Shown here piece after piece: positions 11,306 to 27,988 of a DNA stretch of 64,000 nt. The DNA comes from Cellulomonas chengniuliangii (lineage in GTDB: Bacteria > Actinomycetota > Actinomycetes > Actinomycetales > Cellulomonadaceae). Location of the stretch: contig NZ_CP101988.1 in assembly GCF_024508335.1 (NCBI RefSeq), forward strand, positions 248,001-312,000, written 5' to 3'. Made by a program: the position numbers and the translations under genes. Numbering within the stretch: position 1 is the first letter of the stretch; each line of letters begins with the position of its first letter. The notes below the pieces were generated by a model that had not been told where the DNA came from, did not search any database, and saw nothing but the letters and a program-made list of their open reading frames with translations.

Positions 11306-11810
11306 ATGACCCGCCCGAGACGTCAGGCCGTCGCGCTCGCGACCGTCCTGCTGCTGGTCAGCGGGTGCGACCCTGGTGGCGGACCGGCGGACCGGCGGAC
11401 ACGCAGACCACGCCGACGAGGCTCAAGCCGCTGGCCACGAGCGCGACGTCGCCGTGCAACTACCCGCCGGACACCGGAAGCGGCGACCGCGGCGGCGGCG
11501 ACGGCGGCCTGGGCGCCGGCTTCGGCTACGACTCCTCGCACCACGACTTCGGCGCCGCGGCGCCGCTCACGTTGTGCATGAACGTCGGGGAGGAGGGCAC
11601 GGTCGCCCTCACCTCGAGCTCGCCGCAGATCACGGTGGCCCCCCGATGCTCCCCGCGGAGGGCAGCGTGGTCACGTTCTCCATCACGGTGACGGGCGGGC
11701 CGGGGGGCGACCTGGACTTCGACCTCCTGAACGACCGCGGGAAGTCCGGGGCGCACTTCCACGGCCCCCAGATCGTGACCGACGCGACGGGGTGGTCGTT
11801 CGCGTCCTGA
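11306..11810 (+). pseudogene. Frameshifted lipoprotein gene
   Basis: The start encodes a clear lipoprotein signal (MTRPRRQAV through LLLVSGC), but the reading frame breaks twice. At about 11384-11399 the unit GGACCGGC occurs twice in tandem; removing one copy restores the frame into PADTQTTPTRLKPLA. At about 11640 a run of six C would need seven to pass from SPQITVAP into MLPAEGSVVTFSITVTG. With both repaired, one protein of about 165 residues results, ending at the TGA 11808-11810. I do not recognise a family. Either the gene is dead or the two repeats hold sequencing errors or slippage sites. Confidence 0.7.
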
Positions 11811-11828
11811 GCGCGAGGGCCACGCGGG

Positions 11829-11888
11829 TGTCTCGCATCCCGGATGTGCCCTTCCCCGGGGGTATGTCCCGTCCGTACCGTGTGCGTG
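11829..11888 (+). promoter_or_regulatory. Upstream element copy B with promoter for the SAM-I leader
   Basis: This is the partner of copy A. It contains CATCC-C-GGATG, a short perfect palindrome. Near its 3' end is TACCGT (11876-11881), a plausible -10 hexamer placing the transcription start at or just before the riboswitch P1 strand at 11890. No good -35 is seen, which would fit a promoter needing an activator. The element is otherwise unknown to me. Confidence 0.5.
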
Positions 11889-11889
11889 C

Positions 11890-11985
11890 CCATCCAGAGC
11901 GACTGAGAGACCTGGCTCGCCGACGTCGCAGCAACCCCCGGCCGCATCCCGCGGCAGGCGAGGGTGCTCCCGCCAGGACCGATGG
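11890..11985 (+). promoter_or_regulatory. SAM-I (S-box) riboswitch
   Basis: The leader shows the S-box layout. P1 is made by CCATC at 11890 and GATGG ending at 11985. Next come CAGAG, a GAGAG/CTGGCTC segment, the conserved GCAGCAACC, a P3 hairpin region, and GGTGCT with GCCAGGACC before the P1 3' strand. It is nearly identical in its conserved parts to the leader at 27785-27881. P1 runs straight into GGAGG, the ribosome site of the 15-residue Cys leader peptide at 11995, so SAM binding probably limits translation of that peptide and, through it, the operon. Confidence 0.87.
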
Positions 11986-11994
11986 AGGTCCACC

Positions 11995-12042
11995 GTGCGC
12001 CACCCGAGCAGCAGCCACCGCTGTCGTTGTTGTCGCGGCTGA
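11995..12042 (+). CDS. Cysteine-rich leader peptide
   Basis: A 15-codon reading frame starts with GTG six bases after GGAGG and encodes VRHPSSSHRCRCCRG. Three of its last six residues are Cys, with UGU codons clustered just before the UGA stop. Actinobacteria are known to use short Cys-rich uORFs as cysteine-responsive attenuators, in which ribosome stalling at Cys codons raises expression of sulfur genes. Here the peptide lies between a SAM-I riboswitch and a flavin monooxygenase gene that begins 247 bases downstream. Confidence 0.75.
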   Translation: MRHPSSSHRCRCCRG

Positions 12043-12119
12043 CGCCCGGCCGCCCGCCGCCCGCGGGCAGATGACCCTCCGCTGACCCTGCTGTCAGCCA
12101 CCCACCGGTGCCACTCGGC

Positions 12120-12228
12120 GGCGTGCGTGGGCGCCCGCTGCGTCGTCGGCCCCAGGAGCGCACCCCGTTCCGGGCCGACGCCGCCGCCCGCGGACGCCCG
12201 GCCCCCGGTGGCCGCCACCACGCACGCC
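12120..12228 (+). promoter_or_regulatory. Nested stem-loop between leader peptide and monooxygenase gene
   Basis: GGCGTGCGTGG (12120-12130) can pair perfectly with CCACGCACGCC (12218-12228). Inside it CGTCGGCCC (12144-12152) pairs with GGGCCGACG (12172-12180). The structure follows the Cys leader peptide and ends about 60 bases before the gene. It could be the attenuator part of the leader, but there is no U-tract, so Rho-dependent or translational control is as likely. Confidence 0.45.
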
Positions 12229-12289
12229 TCCTGATCGACCTCTCCACACCCGTGCCGGCTGCGGCCGCACCTCCCAGCAAGGGGTACCC

Positions 12290-13471
12290 ATGTCAGAGTC
12301 CCGTCCGTTCCACCTGGCCGTCGAGCTCTCGGGCGCCGGGCGGCACCCGGCCGCGTGGCGGCTGCCCGACGCCGATGCCGCTGGGCTGCTCACGGCCGCC
12401 CACTGGGCCGAGCTGGTCCGCACCGCCGAGCGCGCCGGAGCCGTCTTCGCGGCCTTCGCCGACTCGGTCCAGCCGCCCTCGGCTGCCACCGACGTGGTCC
12501 AGGCGCGTCTGGACGCGACGGGCCTCGCGGCGCTGCTCGGCCCGTTGACCGCGCGGATCGGCCTGGTGCCCGTGACGCCCGTGACCTACGCGGAGCCGTT
12601 CCACCTTGCGAAGGCGCTGGCCACCATCGACATCGTGAGCGGTGGCCGCGTCGGCTGGCAGGTGGACGTCGCGGCGCCCGCCGGATCTGGTCCCGGGGAC
12701 GTGCAGGCGGCGCAGTTCCACGGACGGTCCGCGGCGGGCGCGGCCGCCCAGTGGCGCGAGGCGCATGACGTCATCGAGGTGGTCCGCCGCCTGTGGGACT
12801 CGTGGGAGGACGACGCGATCGTGCTCGACGCCGCCACCGACCGCTACATCGACCGCTCGCGGGTCCACGACGTCGCGTTCACGGGGGAGACGTTCTCCGT
12901 GGCCGTGGCCTCGATCACGCCGCGGTCCCCGCAGGGGCAGCCGATCGTCGTGGCACGAGGGGACTCGCCGTACGCGCTCGCGGTCGCCGTGACGGGGGCC
13001 GACGTGATCCGCGTGGCGGCGCGCGACGTGCAGGGTGCCGCGGACCTGGTCGCACGGGTGCGGGCAGCCGTCGCGGGGTCGGGCCGCCCGGCAGGCTCGG
13101 TGCACGTGCTGCTCGACGTCGAGACCCTGCTCGGCGCTGACGAGGCCGCCGCGCGGGGCCGGCTCGCCGAGCTCGACTCCCTGGCGGCCCGGGCTTTCGA
13201 TCCCAGCGGGCTGCATGTCGTCGCGGGGGTGGATCGCGCGGCTGACGCGCTCGCCGACCTGGTGGAGCTCACGGGCGTCGACGGGATCGTGCTGCAGCCG
13301 CTCGCCCACGCCGGGGACCTCGCGCTGCTCGCTGACGAGGTCACGCCCCGGCTCCGCGCGCAAGGGCGGCTGGTGGACCGCCCGGCCCCGGGCGGCCCGG
13401 ACGCTCCGCGGACGTTGCGGGACGCGTTCGGGCTCGACCGGCCGATCAGCCGCTACACGGCAGCGCGCTGA
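12290..13471 (+). CDS. LLM class flavin-dependent monooxygenase (NtaA/SnaA/DszA-like), organosulfur type
   Basis: This 393-residue luciferase-fold protein has ATIDIVSGGRVGWQVDVAAP in the FMN region and the family's C-terminal half. It resembles NtaA/SnaA/DszA-like monooxygenases, reduced-flavin enzymes that attack C-S or C-N bonds. The SAM-I riboswitch and the Cys-codon leader upstream point strongly to a role in scavenging sulfur from sulfonates, thioethers or related compounds. The next gene encodes a related but distinct LLM enzyme. The partner flavin reductase is not encoded here. Its C-terminal half resembles the stand-alone protein at 25340-25837. Confidence 0.82.
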   Translation: MSESRPFHLAVELSGAGRHPAAWRLPDADAAGLLTAAHWAELVRTAERAGAVFAAFADSVQPPSAATDVVQARLDATGLAALLGPLTARIGLVPVTPVTYAEPFHLAKALATIDIVSGGRVGWQVDVAAPAGSGPGDVQAAQFHGRSAAGAAAQWREAHDVIEVVRRLWDSWEDDAIVLDAATDRYIDRSRVHDVAFTGETFSVAVASITPRSPQGQPIVVARGDSPYALAVAVTGADVIRVAARDVQGAADLVARVRAAVAGSGRPAGSVHVLLDVETLLGADEAAARGRLAELDSLAARAFDPSGLHVVAGVDRAADALADLVELTGVDGIVLQPLAHAGDLALLADEVTPRLRAQGRLVDRPAPGGPDAPRTLRDAFGLDRPISRYTAAR

Positions 13472-13541
13472 GCCGCGCCAGCCGCCTCGCTTCCGCGCCG
13501 TCCCGCCTTCCCCGTTGAGCCGTCGACCCGAAGGACTTCCG

Positions 13542-14936
13542 ATGCCCAAGCAGATCCACCTCGCCGCGCACTTCCCCGGCGTCAACCACCACACGGTGTG
13601 GACCGACCCGTCCCACCAGCCCGACACGCAGACCGCGTTCGCGTCGTTCGAGCACCTGGCGCGCACCGCCGAGCGCGGCAAGCTCGACTTCCTGTTCCTG
13701 GCCGAGGGGCTGCGGCTGCGCGAGCAGCGCGGGCAGCTCGTGGACCACGACGTGGTGGGCCGCCCCGACACCTACACCGTGCTGGCGGCGCTCGCGGGGG
13801 TGACGTCGCGCCTGGGGCTGGCCGGGACCATCAACGCGACGTTCAACGAGCCGTACGAGCTGGCCCGGCAGTTCGCCACCCTCGACCACCTCTCGGCCGG
13901 CCGGGCCGCCTGGAACGTGGTGACGTCCTCGGACGCCTTCCACGGGGCGAACTTCCGCCGCGGCGGCTACCTGGACCACGCCGACCGCTATGAGCGGGCG
14001 CGTGAGGTCGTCGAGGCGGCGCGCGCCCTGTGGGACGCGTGGGCGGCGGACGCGGTCGTCGCGGACGCGGCGACCGGGGTCTATGCGCGGGACCGGTCGA
14101 TCGGACTGGTCCGCACCGACGGCCGCCTGGTCGACATCGAGGCGCGGCCCACACTGCCCCGCCCGCCCCAGGGCCATCCGGTGATCATCCAGGCCGGGGA
14201 CTCCGACGCGGGCCGTGAGCTCGCCGCCCAGGTCGCCGACGCGGTGTTCTCCCGTCACGGCAGCCTCGAGGAGGGTCGGGCGTTCTACGCCGACGTCAAG
14301 GGCCGGCTGGCGCGATACGGCCGGAGCCCCGAGGACCTCAAGATCCTGCCCGGCGCGTCGTTCGTGCTGGGGGACACCCCCGCGGAGGCCGAGGAGCGCA
14401 TCCGGGAGATCCAGCGCCAGCAGGTCCGCCCGGCGGTGGCCCGCGCGTTCGTCGAGCAGCTGTGGAACCGCGACTTGTCCGACTACGACGTGGACGGGCC
14501 GCTGCCGGAGATCGACCCGCTGGTCGAGGCGCCGTCGATCACGCAGGGCCGGGCGGCGACGTTCAAGGACCCGTTCGCTGTCGCCGCCACCTGGCGCGCG
14601 CTCGCCGCCGAGAAGGGCTTGAGCATCCGGGAGCTGGTCATCGAGGTGATCGGGCGCCAGTCGTTCGTCGGGACCCCCGAGCACGTCGCGGACGAGATCG
14701 ACCGGTACGTGCAGTCCGACGCCTCGGACGGCTTCATCCTCGTCCCGCACCTGACCCCGCACGGCCTCGACGAGTTCGTGGACCGGGTGGTGCCGCTGCT
14801 GCAGGAGCGCGGCTCGTTCCGCACCGAGTACACGGGGACCACGCTCCGCGAGCACCTGGGGCTGCCCGCCGCCGGGCACTTCGGCCGGACGCTCGACGGA
14901 GTCGGCGCGGCAGACGAGGCGCTGCCCGTCGCCTGA
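13542..14936 (+). CDS. NtaA/SnaA/DszA family flavin-dependent monooxygenase
   Basis: This 464-residue protein is a typical long LLM monooxygenase. It starts KQIHLAAHFPGVNHHTVW, has the FMN-region block FATLDHLSAGRAAWNVVTS and the DAFHGANFRRGGYLDHADRY segment, and near the end GTPEHVADEID. The family includes DszA and related C-S or C-N cleaving enzymes that use FMNH2 from a separate reductase. It lies 70 bases after the preceding LLM gene, downstream of the SAM-I/Cys leader, and is probably in the same operon. AAGGA before the ATG supports the start. Confidence 0.88.
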   Translation: MPKQIHLAAHFPGVNHHTVWTDPSHQPDTQTAFASFEHLARTAERGKLDFLFLAEGLRLREQRGQLVDHDVVGRPDTYTVLAALAGVTSRLGLAGTINATFNEPYELARQFATLDHLSAGRAAWNVVTSSDAFHGANFRRGGYLDHADRYERAREVVEAARALWDAWAADAVVADAATGVYARDRSIGLVRTDGRLVDIEARPTLPRPPQGHPVIIQAGDSDAGRELAAQVADAVFSRHGSLEEGRAFYADVKGRLARYGRSPEDLKILPGASFVLGDTPAEAEERIREIQRQQVRPAVARAFVEQLWNRDLSDYDVDGPLPEIDPLVEAPSITQGRAATFKDPFAVAATWRALAAEKGLSIRELVIEVIGRQSFVGTPEHVADEIDRYVQSDASDGFILVPHLTPHGLDEFVDRVVPLLQERGSFRTEYTGTTLREHLGLPAAGHFGRTLDGVGAADEALPVA

Positions 14937-15014
14937 CGCTGCGCCCCCACCCGCTGCGGCGGCCAACCATTCCGCACACCCACGCTCACCCGTGCCACGA
15001 CAGAGAGGCTCGAC

Positions 15015-15887
15015 ATGACCGCCACGACCGACCACGCCACCGACACCGACCCCGCCGCCACCGACACCGACCCCGCCGCCACCGACACCGACCCCGCCGT
15101 GTTCGTCGCCGAGTGGGAGGCCTGGCACGCCGCCCGTGAGGCGAAGTGCCGGGACCCGCACGGCTGGGTCGCCATCACGGCCCTGCACTGGCTCGCCCAG
15201 GAGCCCGCGACGTTGGACGGTGTCCCCGGCCGCTGGTCGAGCGTCGACGGGACGGTGCGCATCGAGGCCGCCACAGCAGACGGCATCACGCTGCCCGACG
15301 GGTCGGCCGTGGACGGCGCCGCCGAGCTCACTCCCGTGGAGGGCGCCTCCGGGCTTTCGGTCCGGGCCGGCGACCTGCTGCTCGAGGTCGCGCGCCGCAC
15401 CGGCCACGACATCGTCCGGGTGCATGACCCGAAGGCCCCGCAGCTCGCGGCGTTCACCGGCATCCCCACCTTCGCCCCCGACCCGGCGTGGGTCGCCCAG
15501 GGTCGGATCGAGCGCTTCGACGCGCCGCAGACCGTGACGACCGGCGCCGTGGTGGACGGCCTCGAGCACCACCATCAGGCCATCGGCACCGTGTCGTTCA
15601 CGCTGGGGGGCATCGAGCAGGCGCTCGTGGTGTTCTCCGACGGCCCTGGCGCCAAGGTGTTGTTCCGGGACGCGACCAGCGGGGTGACCACCTACCCGGG
15701 CGCCCGCACCCTGGCCTTGGGCCCGATCGCGGAGGACGGAATCGTCAACCTCGACTTCAACCGGGCGGCGAACCTGCCGTGCGGCCTGACGCAGTTCGCG
15801 ACCTGCCCGGTGGCGCCTGCGGAGAACACCCTCACGGTGGCGGTCGAGGCGGGGGAGAAGTGGGGCCCGGCCCGCGCTGACGTGTGA
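15015..15887 (+). CDS. DUF1684 domain protein
   Basis: This 290-residue protein matches the DUF1684 pattern: FVAEWEAWHAAREA, then DPHGWVAITALHWL, the central SFTLGGIEQALVVF, and the C-terminal LDFNRAANLPCGLTQFATCP. Its biochemical function is not established. The first 30 residues contain three copies of ATDTDPA encoded by a 21-base DNA repeat, a low-complexity acidic tail before the domain. It ends the sulfur operon (78 bases after the monooxygenase), so a role in handling the oxidised product is possible. Confidence 0.85.
   Translation: MTATTDHATDTDPAATDTDPAATDTDPAVFVAEWEAWHAAREAKCRDPHGWVAITALHWLAQEPATLDGVPGRWSSVDGTVRIEAATADGITLPDGSAVDGAAELTPVEGASGLSVRAGDLLLEVARRTGHDIVRVHDPKAPQLAAFTGIPTFAPDPAWVAQGRIERFDAPQTVTTGAVVDGLEHHHQAIGTVSFTLGGIEQALVVFSDGPGAKVLFRDATSGVTTYPGARTLALGPIAEDGIVNLDFNRAANLPCGLTQFATCPVAPAENTLTVAVEAGEKWGPARADV
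15036..15098 (+). repeat. Three perfect 21-bp tandem repeats in coding sequence
   Basis: The unit (gccaccgacaccgaccccgc plus c) occurs three times without change inside the DUF1684 gene and encodes ATDTDPA three times. Repeat number can change in frame, so it may vary between strains. Confidence 0.9.
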
Positions 15888-27122: not shown

Positions 27123-27547
27123 GGCTGCCGCCACGGCAGGCCGGCGGCGCGCCAGCCCTCGATGCCGCGGTGCCCGTGCTCGTCGAGCCCGCCCTCGAAG
27201 CCCTCGAGCACGTTGTACGCGGGGCCGTACCCGGCCGCGGTGGCGGCTGTCGCGGCGCCGATGGACCGGGCGCCCGAGCGGCACAGGAACAGCACCGGCC
27301 GGCCGTCGCCGGGGGTCAGCCCGGTGCGGGCCAGCTCGTCCAGGAAGTCGGGGTTGACCTGCCCGCTGGGGTAGCGGGACCACTCGATGAAGGCGACGCC
27401 CTGGCCGAGCGGGCTGACGTCGGGGACGCCCACGAATCGCCACTCGGCGTCGGTGCGCACGTCCACCAGCACGGCGTGCTCGTCGGCGGCTAGCAGGTCC
27501 CACGCCTCGCGAGGGGTCAGGTCTCCGGCGTACTCGTGGGCGCTCAT
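27119..27547 (-). CDS. Rhodanese-like domain protein
   Basis: This 142-residue single rhodanese domain has the active-site Cys loop LFLCRSGARS and the upstream motif LVDVRTDAEW. Rhodaneses carry sulfane sulfur as a persulfide on this Cys. It sits in an operon with metZ, overlapping it by ATGA at the 3' end and overlapping the DUF1737 gene by four bases at its start. It probably supplies or channels sulfide for homocysteine synthesis; this is inference from the conserved neighbourhood. Confidence 0.9.
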   Translation of the reverse strand: MSAHEYAGDLTPREAWDLLAADEHAVLVDVRTDAEWRFVGVPDVSPLGQGVAFIEWSRYPSGQVNPDFLDELARTGLTPGDGRPVLFLCRSGARSIGAATAATAAGYGPAYNVLEGFEGGLDEHGHRGIEGWRAAGLPWRQP

Positions 27548-27777
27548 ACGAGCCTCGTCTCGGGCTGCTGGGGCGTGGGGAGCACAACGGCCTGCGCGAC
27601 GATGACACGCTCGCCGTCGAACGTGGCGGCGGGGGAGCCGTGCAGCACGTACCCCTCGGCCAGCGCCGCGCTCACCCGCTCGCAGAAGGTGCTGTCGTCC
27701 GGCCCGGTGAGCAGCCGGTAGCGGTGGCGTGCGGGCTTGTCACCGGTCGTGCCGGGGACGGTTTCGGGTGTGGTCAT
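27544..27777 (-). CDS. DUF1737 domain protein
   Basis: This 77-residue protein carries the DUF1737 pattern (YRLLTGPDDSTFCERVSAAL, then EGYVLHGSPAATFDG) in its C-terminal part. The function is unknown. It is the first gene of the metZ operon, so the SAM-I riboswitch acts on it directly: GGAGG lies four bases before the ATG and shares two bases with the P1 3' strand (GATGG). The longer in-frame start at 27819 would lie inside the riboswitch and is rejected. Confidence 0.85.
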   Translation of the reverse strand: MTTPETVPGTTGDKPARHRYRLLTGPDDSTFCERVSAALAEGYVLHGSPAATFDGERVIVAQAVVLPTPQQPETRLV

Positions 27778-27784
27778 GTCGCCT

Positions 27785-27881
27785 CCATCGGTCCTGGCGG
27801 TAGCACCCTCGACCGGCACCGGGGGGTGCGCGCGGGTTGCTGCGGCGTCATCGAGCCAGATCTCTCGGCCGCTCTGGATGG
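27785..27881 (-). promoter_or_regulatory. SAM-I (S-box) riboswitch of the metZ operon
   Basis: On the minus strand the leader begins CCATCCAGAG and contains GAGAGATCTGGCTCGATGAC, GCAGCAACCC, a GC-rich P3 region and GGTGCTACCGCCAGG, and ends with GATGG, which pairs with the first CCATC as P1. These are the conserved S-box parts in order. The P1 3' strand runs into the ribosome site (GGAGG) of the DUF1737 gene, so SAM should switch off translation initiation. TACTCT at 27889-27894 (minus strand) is a likely -10 box just upstream. Confidence 0.93.
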
Positions 27882-27988
27882 TCCTGCGAGAGTACGCCGT
27901 AGCCGGGTTTCATTCCAGGTGCCGGACAAGCGGCTCACGATCCGAGACGATCGTCGCGCCTGATGGCACCGGTGCGGGACCGCGTGCT

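Follow-up and report, generated by a model that had tools for sequence, protein, structure and literature searches.

The locus considered here raises the question of whether a riboswitch for S-adenosylmethionine (SAM) and a leader peptide with cysteine codons can be set in series, so that the first decides whether the second is put to use. The window, by which we mean the whole analysed stretch of 64,000 nucleotides of Cellulomonas chengniuliangii (assembly GCF_024508335.1, contig NZ_CP101988.1, positions 248,001 to 312,000, forward strand), carries a SAM-I riboswitch followed by a short open reading frame (ORF) and a monooxygenase operon. An original prediction, made from the letters of this stretch, had placed a SAM-I aptamer at 11890–11985, ending within the ribosome site of a 15-codon ORF, ahead of two flavin monooxygenase genes and a DUF1684 gene; that observation was borne out as a whole, the aptamer, the leader ORF and the operon all being present (Table 1). 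From sequence comparison, we consider a serial two-input leader to be the best explanation, with a probability of roughly 0.6.

According to this proposal, transcription would begin just ahead of the aptamer. With SAM plentiful, the aptamer would close its P1 helix over part of the leader Shine–Dalgarno sequence and ribosomes would be excluded; with SAM low, a ribosome would translate the 15-codon leader and, given enough charged Cys-tRNA, would reach the stop codon and depart, leaving the operon off. If, alternatively, Cys-tRNA were scarce, that ribosome would stall at the three UGU codons, and the stalled ribosome alone would either shield the C-rich RNA beyond the leader from the termination factor Rho or disrupt a repressing fold, upon which the operon would be on. 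Since, with Rho or with masking, the untranslated and the freely translated leader would both be off and only the stalled one on, the AND reading would be independent of the last step. The original prediction had proposed just such a computation of low SAM AND low cysteine; of this claim, the serial order of the devices was upheld by the comparison, and the AND itself—expression requiring SAM as well as charged Cys-tRNA to be low—we infer from the usual attenuation mechanisms and likewise favor. Neither input alone should then open the operon, and, if the proposal is true, a metabolite-sensing RNA would decide whether a second sensor, the translating ribosome, is loaded, a compact, naturally occurring gate in which sulfur need would be read from two inputs, a methionine-side signal (SAM) and a cysteine-side one (Cys-tRNA).

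Table 1. Features of the leader region and operon, in window coordinates.
Feature	Position	Strand	Basis
SAM-I (S-box) aptamer	11887..11988	+	RF00162 43.1 bits, E 2.4e-7; GCAACC and GGUGC; orthologs in G104, G108
P1 helix, 5' strand CCAUC	11890..11894	+	pairs with 11981–11985 (covariance alignment, sequence)
P1 3' strand GAUGG (11981–11985) and leader Shine–Dalgarno GGAGG (11984–11988)	11981..11988	+	sequence
Leader peptide ORF MRHPSSSHRCRCCRG, 15 codons	11995 (GTG)..12042 (TGA)	+	sequence; conserved in G104, G108
Putative regulatory block UGU CGU UGU UGU (Cys-Arg-Cys-Cys)	12022..12033	+	invariant in three genomes; UGU usage
Post-leader block, largely conserved, C-rich, G-poor; possible Rho loading site	12043..12099	+	three-genome alignment, C/G
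Nested stem-loop of the original prediction; probably not functional	12120..12228	+	sequence diverged
First monooxygenase gene, Bac_luciferase; NtaA/DmoA model below cut-off	12290..13471	+	Pfam/NCBIfam matches
Second monooxygenase gene, Bac_luciferase; passes NCBIfam NtaA/DmoA cut-off	13542..14936	+	Pfam/NCBIfam matches
DUF1684 gene, third in the operon	15015..15887	+	domain match; gene order in relatives

The aptamer, the leader and its cysteine codons

The covariance-model scan matched RF00162 over the full model (positions 1–108), and both GCAACC and GGUGC, which we take to be the SAM-I core segments contacting SAM, were found in the window sequence. The predicted aptamer was thus recovered, albeit with a score slightly below the RF00162 gathering score of 44.4 bits; the orthologous aptamer of G108 lay above that value (45.7 bits) and that of G104 below it (43.8 bits). 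The aptamer does end within the leader's ribosome site, as had been stated, in that P1 and the Shine–Dalgarno sequence share two of the five GGAGG bases; moreover, GATGG closed the aptamer at 91 of the family's 101 SAM-I sites and at 125 of the 127 in a sample of the order, among the matches listed. Because P1 holds those two bases, its closure would keep ribosomes off the leader, and an overlap of the base stems of actinobacterial riboswitches with the ribosome site is described in passages of Seliverstov and colleagues (PMC1262725). We therefore regard it as very probable that the SAM-I element gates leader translation, as had been proposed, the position being observed and SAM binding and repression presumed. 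A 30-codon ORF beginning with the ATG at 11982, which frame lacks cysteine and is open in the orthologs too, was rejected as the leader since its start sits within P1.

A close operon, with the first protein 83–84% identical, was found in three of seven genomes of the genus (G000, G104 and G108), the remaining four having distant matches only (two) or no match (two). All three close operons possess the SAM-I element, near-identical spacing and a leader of 15 codons at the equivalent position and in the same frame, the counterparts being MRNPSSVHSCRCCPA and MRNPSSVHRCRCCPA in G104 and G108, respectively. In the alignment of the trio the aptamer (98–100% identical, with the shorter length as basis), the reading frame, the cysteine block and most of the 57 nucleotides past the leader were conserved, and positions 12100–12240 had diverged. 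The role assigned originally to the nested stem-loop accordingly found no support: the structure folds in the window's genome, but its sequence has diverged in G104 and G108.

These data bear on a different reading, in which the aptamer would be the relic of a direct switch present in an ancestor, the operon now being driven by a cysteine attenuator alone or by an internal promoter. A direct arrangement does occur before homologous genes (G027 and G082), and the score of the window copy falls short of the Rfam cut-off; a relic, however, would hardly keep such aptamer identity while 12100–12240 diverged, nor a P1 that still overlaps the leader Shine–Dalgarno sequence, and the combination of SAM-I and leader recurs in other families, so that we hold this explanation to be improbable.

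As in cysteine attenuators, the window leader combines a short ORF, a Shine–Dalgarno sequence, a cysteine cluster near the stop and a probable sulfur gene downstream. Its three cysteine codons (at 12022, 12028 and 12031) are all UGU; outside the cysteine block the trio leaders differ (H/N, S/V, R/S, R/P, G/A). In the trio UGU accounts for 9 of 9 leader cysteine codons, in contrast to UGC for all 26 cysteine codons of 11 window ORFs (p = 2.7e-4 for the three codons of the window leader versus those ORFs). The same was seen in a wider set of 25 cysteine leaders before homologous genes, described below, with 80 UGU versus 15 UGC, the remaining codons ending in A or T in 84 of 641 instances; the corresponding p-value of 5e-45 overstates the case because the leaders are related, but the direction is plain. 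The sole cysteine anticodon found by ARAGORN was GCA (30 loci scanned of the 50 tRNA matches in the genome), and UGU would thus be read by wobble. Judging from these codons, we think it likely that the leader senses cysteine supply, and the conserved block together with the UGU codons sustains what had been supposed of it at the outset. The UGU bias, furthermore, would offer a simple sequence mark for spotting cysteine attenuators in G+C-rich genomes. In the window's genome a Val-Cys-Gly tRNA cluster occurs twice, at about 1646000 and 1651300.

Recurrence of the two modules, together and apart

A homolog search of the family gave a match in 97 of 221 genomes, from which 30 homolog loci were taken and inspected for a cysteine leader, defined as an ORF of 14–45 codons with a Shine–Dalgarno sequence and a cysteine cluster. 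(A separate count of 8 in 80, obtained with a filter that requires a Shine–Dalgarno sequence and so misses leaderless ORFs, is a lower bound and was not used.) Such a leader was present at 25 of the 30 loci, namely, the trio and 22 others, which latter 22 had no SAM-I element according to a motif search of the 900 nucleotides upstream. At two further loci (G027 and G082, with 42.5 and 47.3 bits) the SAM-I element lay directly on the ribosome site of the monooxygenase gene with no leader between, and at the last three of the 30 neither module was found by these rules. The same gene family therefore occurs under each module alone and under both.

The pairing itself is not confined to this operon. 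We inspected 240 SAM-I sites—101 from the family, 127 from a sample of the order (119 genomes) and 12 more—among the matches listed, one stretch being left out since its contig ends past the aptamer. At 33 of the 240, a leader with the motif R-R-x-H/V-V-D-L (hereafter HVDL-type) and a cysteine near its end begins just past P1, at a distance of 3–12 nucleotides in the 31 measured: 31 of 228 sites in 18 genomes, some counted repeatedly (G262 and G289 five times each), and 2 of the 12 added sites, one of them in a further genome. Those genomes fall in five families of the order, none of them the window's, and the tandem is consequently not unique, as it had first been taken to be. At the 0.01 E-value level, the 31 leaders matched NF042934 (a putative leader peptide; 21), NF042936 (8) and NF042933 (6); of five scanned singly, four matched NF042934, two above its 27-bit cut-off. 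Their last cysteine codon is UGU in 27 of 31, versus UGC in 25 of 28 of the other cysteine codons. Of the ORFs downstream of these 31 leaders 10 were scanned, and seven of them had a Pfam match (three had none): an ABC transporter ATPase, a rhodanese, a flavin reductase, a solute-binding protein, a Cys/Met enzyme of the pyridoxal-phosphate type (an O-acetylhomoserine sulfhydrylase by a partial NCBIfam match), an FAD-NAD binding protein and a luciferase-type monooxygenase, the names of the solute-binding and FAD-NAD proteins not being those of sulfur genes.

With a less strict criterion, a short ORF having at least three clustered cysteines was present past the aptamer at 10 of the 228 sites, versus a mean of 1.1 (maximum 3) in shuffled sequences. 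Eight of these lacked the HVDL motif, and comprised the trio and G068 as clear instances, one uORF (upstream ORF) overlapping metF, one leader HVDL-like by eye and two uncertain ones. In G068 the SAM-I element is paired with the poly-cysteine leader MRDVLNPCCRCLRQDLHVCTAAALVLV before an OsmC-like gene, a homolog of which was not found in the other 220 genomes of the family at an E-value of 1e-20. A chance origin of the pairing is unlikely by the shuffles (60 repeats over the 228 sites), which yielded HVDL-type leaders 0.02 times on average and at most once, though that rule was set post hoc, and poly-cysteine leaders at the 1.1 already mentioned.

The motif of the HVDL-type leaders, with invariant aspartate and cysteine columns in the alignment of 31, might suggest that the peptide itself matters, acting as a nascent-chain arrest sequence instead of a codon sensor. 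The window leader, however, has no HVDL motif, several of its residues outside the cysteine block vary, and the UGU bias points to the codons, so that we give this explanation very little credence.

A more serious competitor is that the SAM-I element controls translation of the leader, and that this translation by itself either protects the mRNA or supplies the operon with ribosomes, the cysteine codons carrying no signal. Precedents for such coupling exist: a riboswitch with an overlap-coupled uORF is described in part of PMC11260477, and PMC9373788 presents a SAM-II switch whose Shine–Dalgarno sequence serves a start 74 nucleotides downstream. Within our own set, 19 of 41 metF SAM-I sites start a uORF that overlaps metF by NTGA, several of them without cysteine. 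This explanation nonetheless leaves the invariant cysteine block and the UGU usage unaccounted for, as it does the cysteine leaders without a SAM-I motif before homologous genes; the gap between leader and first gene, furthermore, is too long for overlap coupling. We consider it unlikely, if the least so of the alternatives.

The metF-like sites (L001, L156, L171, L181, L236 and others), which were identified by a sequence signature of metF, are of interest in their own right: the uORFs have 11–21 codons, and the overlap of exactly NTGA would be the layout of a SAM-gated termination–reinitiation. Three further SAM-I sites drew our attention. In L330 (G227) the leader cysteine codon and the stop make up one side of a hairpin with 14 pairs (GGCUGUCAGCGCUG with CAGCGCUGACAGCC), an apt spot for the action of a stalled ribosome; and in L268 and L271 (G277 and G316) 13 and 9 bases of the leader coding region, judged by eye, are complementary to a stretch preceding the next gene, resembling the long-range pairing of attenuators.

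Returning to the serial leader, we take that of the window to be one instance of a wider actinobacterial pattern in which SAM-I elements would gate cysteine-attenuator-like leaders. We also lean toward the broader proposition that these form a widespread and undescribed class spread over several families of a single actinobacterial order, in which many SAM-I elements, instead of acting on genes, would be ribosome-entry gates for cysteine-attenuator leaders, with a NOT-SAM AND low-Cys-tRNA logic and with wobble-read UGU selected as the sensor. If the proposal is true, the recurrence ahead of genes for a sulfhydrylase, a rhodanese, a flavin reductase, a monooxygenase and transporters means that such gates may organize sulfur scavenging across many genera. 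The pattern's reach may be limited, since in a sample of the class (a match in 140 of 196 genomes) the best 30 loci had no leader and all 30 SAM-I elements led directly into an ORF of at least 143 codons.

From the leader to the operon

For the last regulatory step we considered the RNA beyond the leader stop. As expected of a Rho-dependent attenuator, the post-leader RNA of the trio is rich in C and poor in G: the C/G ratio over 60 nucleotides was 1.73 in the trio, 1.82 past the HVDL-type leaders (n = 30) and 1.79 past the leaders without SAM-I (n = 22), versus 1.17 (n = 346) and 1.29 (n = 334) in the controls. The conserved block also contains two short possible hairpins (12052–12068 and 12081–12098). 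In attenuation of the tnaC type, a stalled leader ribosome keeps Rho off C-rich RNA; compared with that system, the trigger in the window would be a shortage of Cys-tRNA, with entry gated by SAM. Passages of PMC1262725 state that the cysteine leaders of actinobacteria have no terminators and might use Rho, which mode of attenuation is there proposed for the mycobacterial cys leaders; the window agrees with this. An attenuator of the trp type, based on an intrinsic terminator, was rejected because no terminator-like site lies past the leader in 11700–12400. Folding with ribosome footprints at each cysteine codon and at the stop did not discriminate between Rho and masking of the ribosome site, and the whole leader was no more stable than shuffled sequences (z = −0.80). 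We hold Rho to be a possible last step, though somewhat less likely than not.

Several of our findings weigh against the serial gate. Only three close orthologs were available, so that few substitutions can be compared, and the window aptamer lies below the gathering score. The G068 leader has UGC in three of its four cysteine codons, contrary to the UGU rule, and its post-leader 60 nucleotides, with 27 C and 20 G, show little C-richness, which property is in any event a weak sign of Rho. No intrinsic terminator (hairpin plus U run) occurs between leader and gene, the sole terminator-like site in 11700–12400 being at 12008–12024, within the leader itself; the footprint foldings revealed no consistent exposure of the operon ribosome site over the three genomes; and a promoter between leader and gene is possible. 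As to the recurrence, the HVDL rule was defined after the sequences had been inspected, and aptamers and leaders share descent, so that p-values overstate their independence. No sigma-70 promoter was found in 11700–12400, for which search the consensus may suit actinobacterial promoters poorly. Judged by eye from the alignment, the leader end GGCUGAC and a downstream GUCAGCC form seven pairs in the window but five in each of G104 and G108, and were not used as evidence.

Precedents and operon genes

Among the matches listed in the open-licence literature, as judged by titles and the openings of abstracts, no paper reported a SAM-I element ahead of a cysteine leader; as far as seen, then, a riboswitch gating a cysteine attenuator would be a new construction from known parts. 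The actinobacterial cysteine leaders (Ms5788A and Ms4527A; NF042933, NF042934 and NF042936) resemble that of the window in being short ORFs with cysteine codons near the stop before sulfur genes. A title by Canestrari (2020), cited in PMC13236596, reportedly terms the mycobacterial cysteine-responsive leaders leaderless ORFs; the window leader differs from them in that its ribosome site overlaps a riboswitch helix and in lacking the HVDL motif. The mycobacterial leaders, as the window's, are without a conserved terminator hairpin in the portion of PMC1262725 concerned with them, and cysteine leaders are also described in passages of PMC8632094. In Streptomyces lividans TK24 the methionine leader before metNIQ, MSTTSDRTPATEATTTPGARCMCRRMCAF, as given in an excerpt of PMC8079986, has three clustered cysteines, and might, by its sequence, be a cysteine leader.

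Two inputs, or a translated element behind a riboswitch, have been described in other forms. The B12 riboswitch and translated uORF before ppe2 of Mycobacterium tuberculosis are like the window in that uORF translation decides downstream expression; that uORF, however, overlaps the gene and re-feeds ribosomes, and the word cysteine is absent from the text of that paper (PMC11260477). The tandem of SAM-I and a T box for Met tRNA, a NOT A AND B gate, has the same logic of low SAM plus low charged tRNA, but consists of two folded RNAs in series, whereas in the window a translating ribosome would take the place of the second RNA, with cysteine as the amino acid; in that review (PMC9481103) neither leader peptide nor uORF appears. 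The Xanthomonas SAM-I element that senses uncharged initiator tRNA unites translation control with a tRNA signal, as proposed here, yet the tRNA binds the expression platform itself and the abstract of PMC7270179 has no leader peptide. In the metA SAM-II switch of Sinorhizobium, finally, a Shine–Dalgarno sequence within the switch acts on a distant start codon, as in the window; that element has one input, and no cysteine leader occurs in the abstract of PMC9373788.

The operon that these elements precede consists, as originally described, of two flavin monooxygenase genes with a DUF1684 gene behind them; in G104, G108, G027 and G082 the downstream ORFs come in the same succession and their proteins begin similarly, and the distance from the leader to the first gene is 247–252 nucleotides in the trio (247 in the window). 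The two monooxygenases, of 393 and 464 residues (857 in all), contain no cysteine and no methionine past the start, a composition consistent with expression during sulfur starvation. In seven further proteins of the window, cysteines and internal methionines together number about 63 in 2711 residues, though two of the seven likewise have only one each. In 30 homologs of the first monooxygenase, the initial 366 codons specify no cysteine and nine methionines among 10,955 residues. The operon probably serves in sulfur scavenging. A second SAM-I element of the window (27782–27884, minus strand; 50.1 bits) lies directly on the ribosome site of a DUF1737 gene (27544–27777), which is followed by an ORF resembling a rhodanese by eye; this element converges on the monooxygenase operon, as do its counterparts in G104, G108, G027 and G082.

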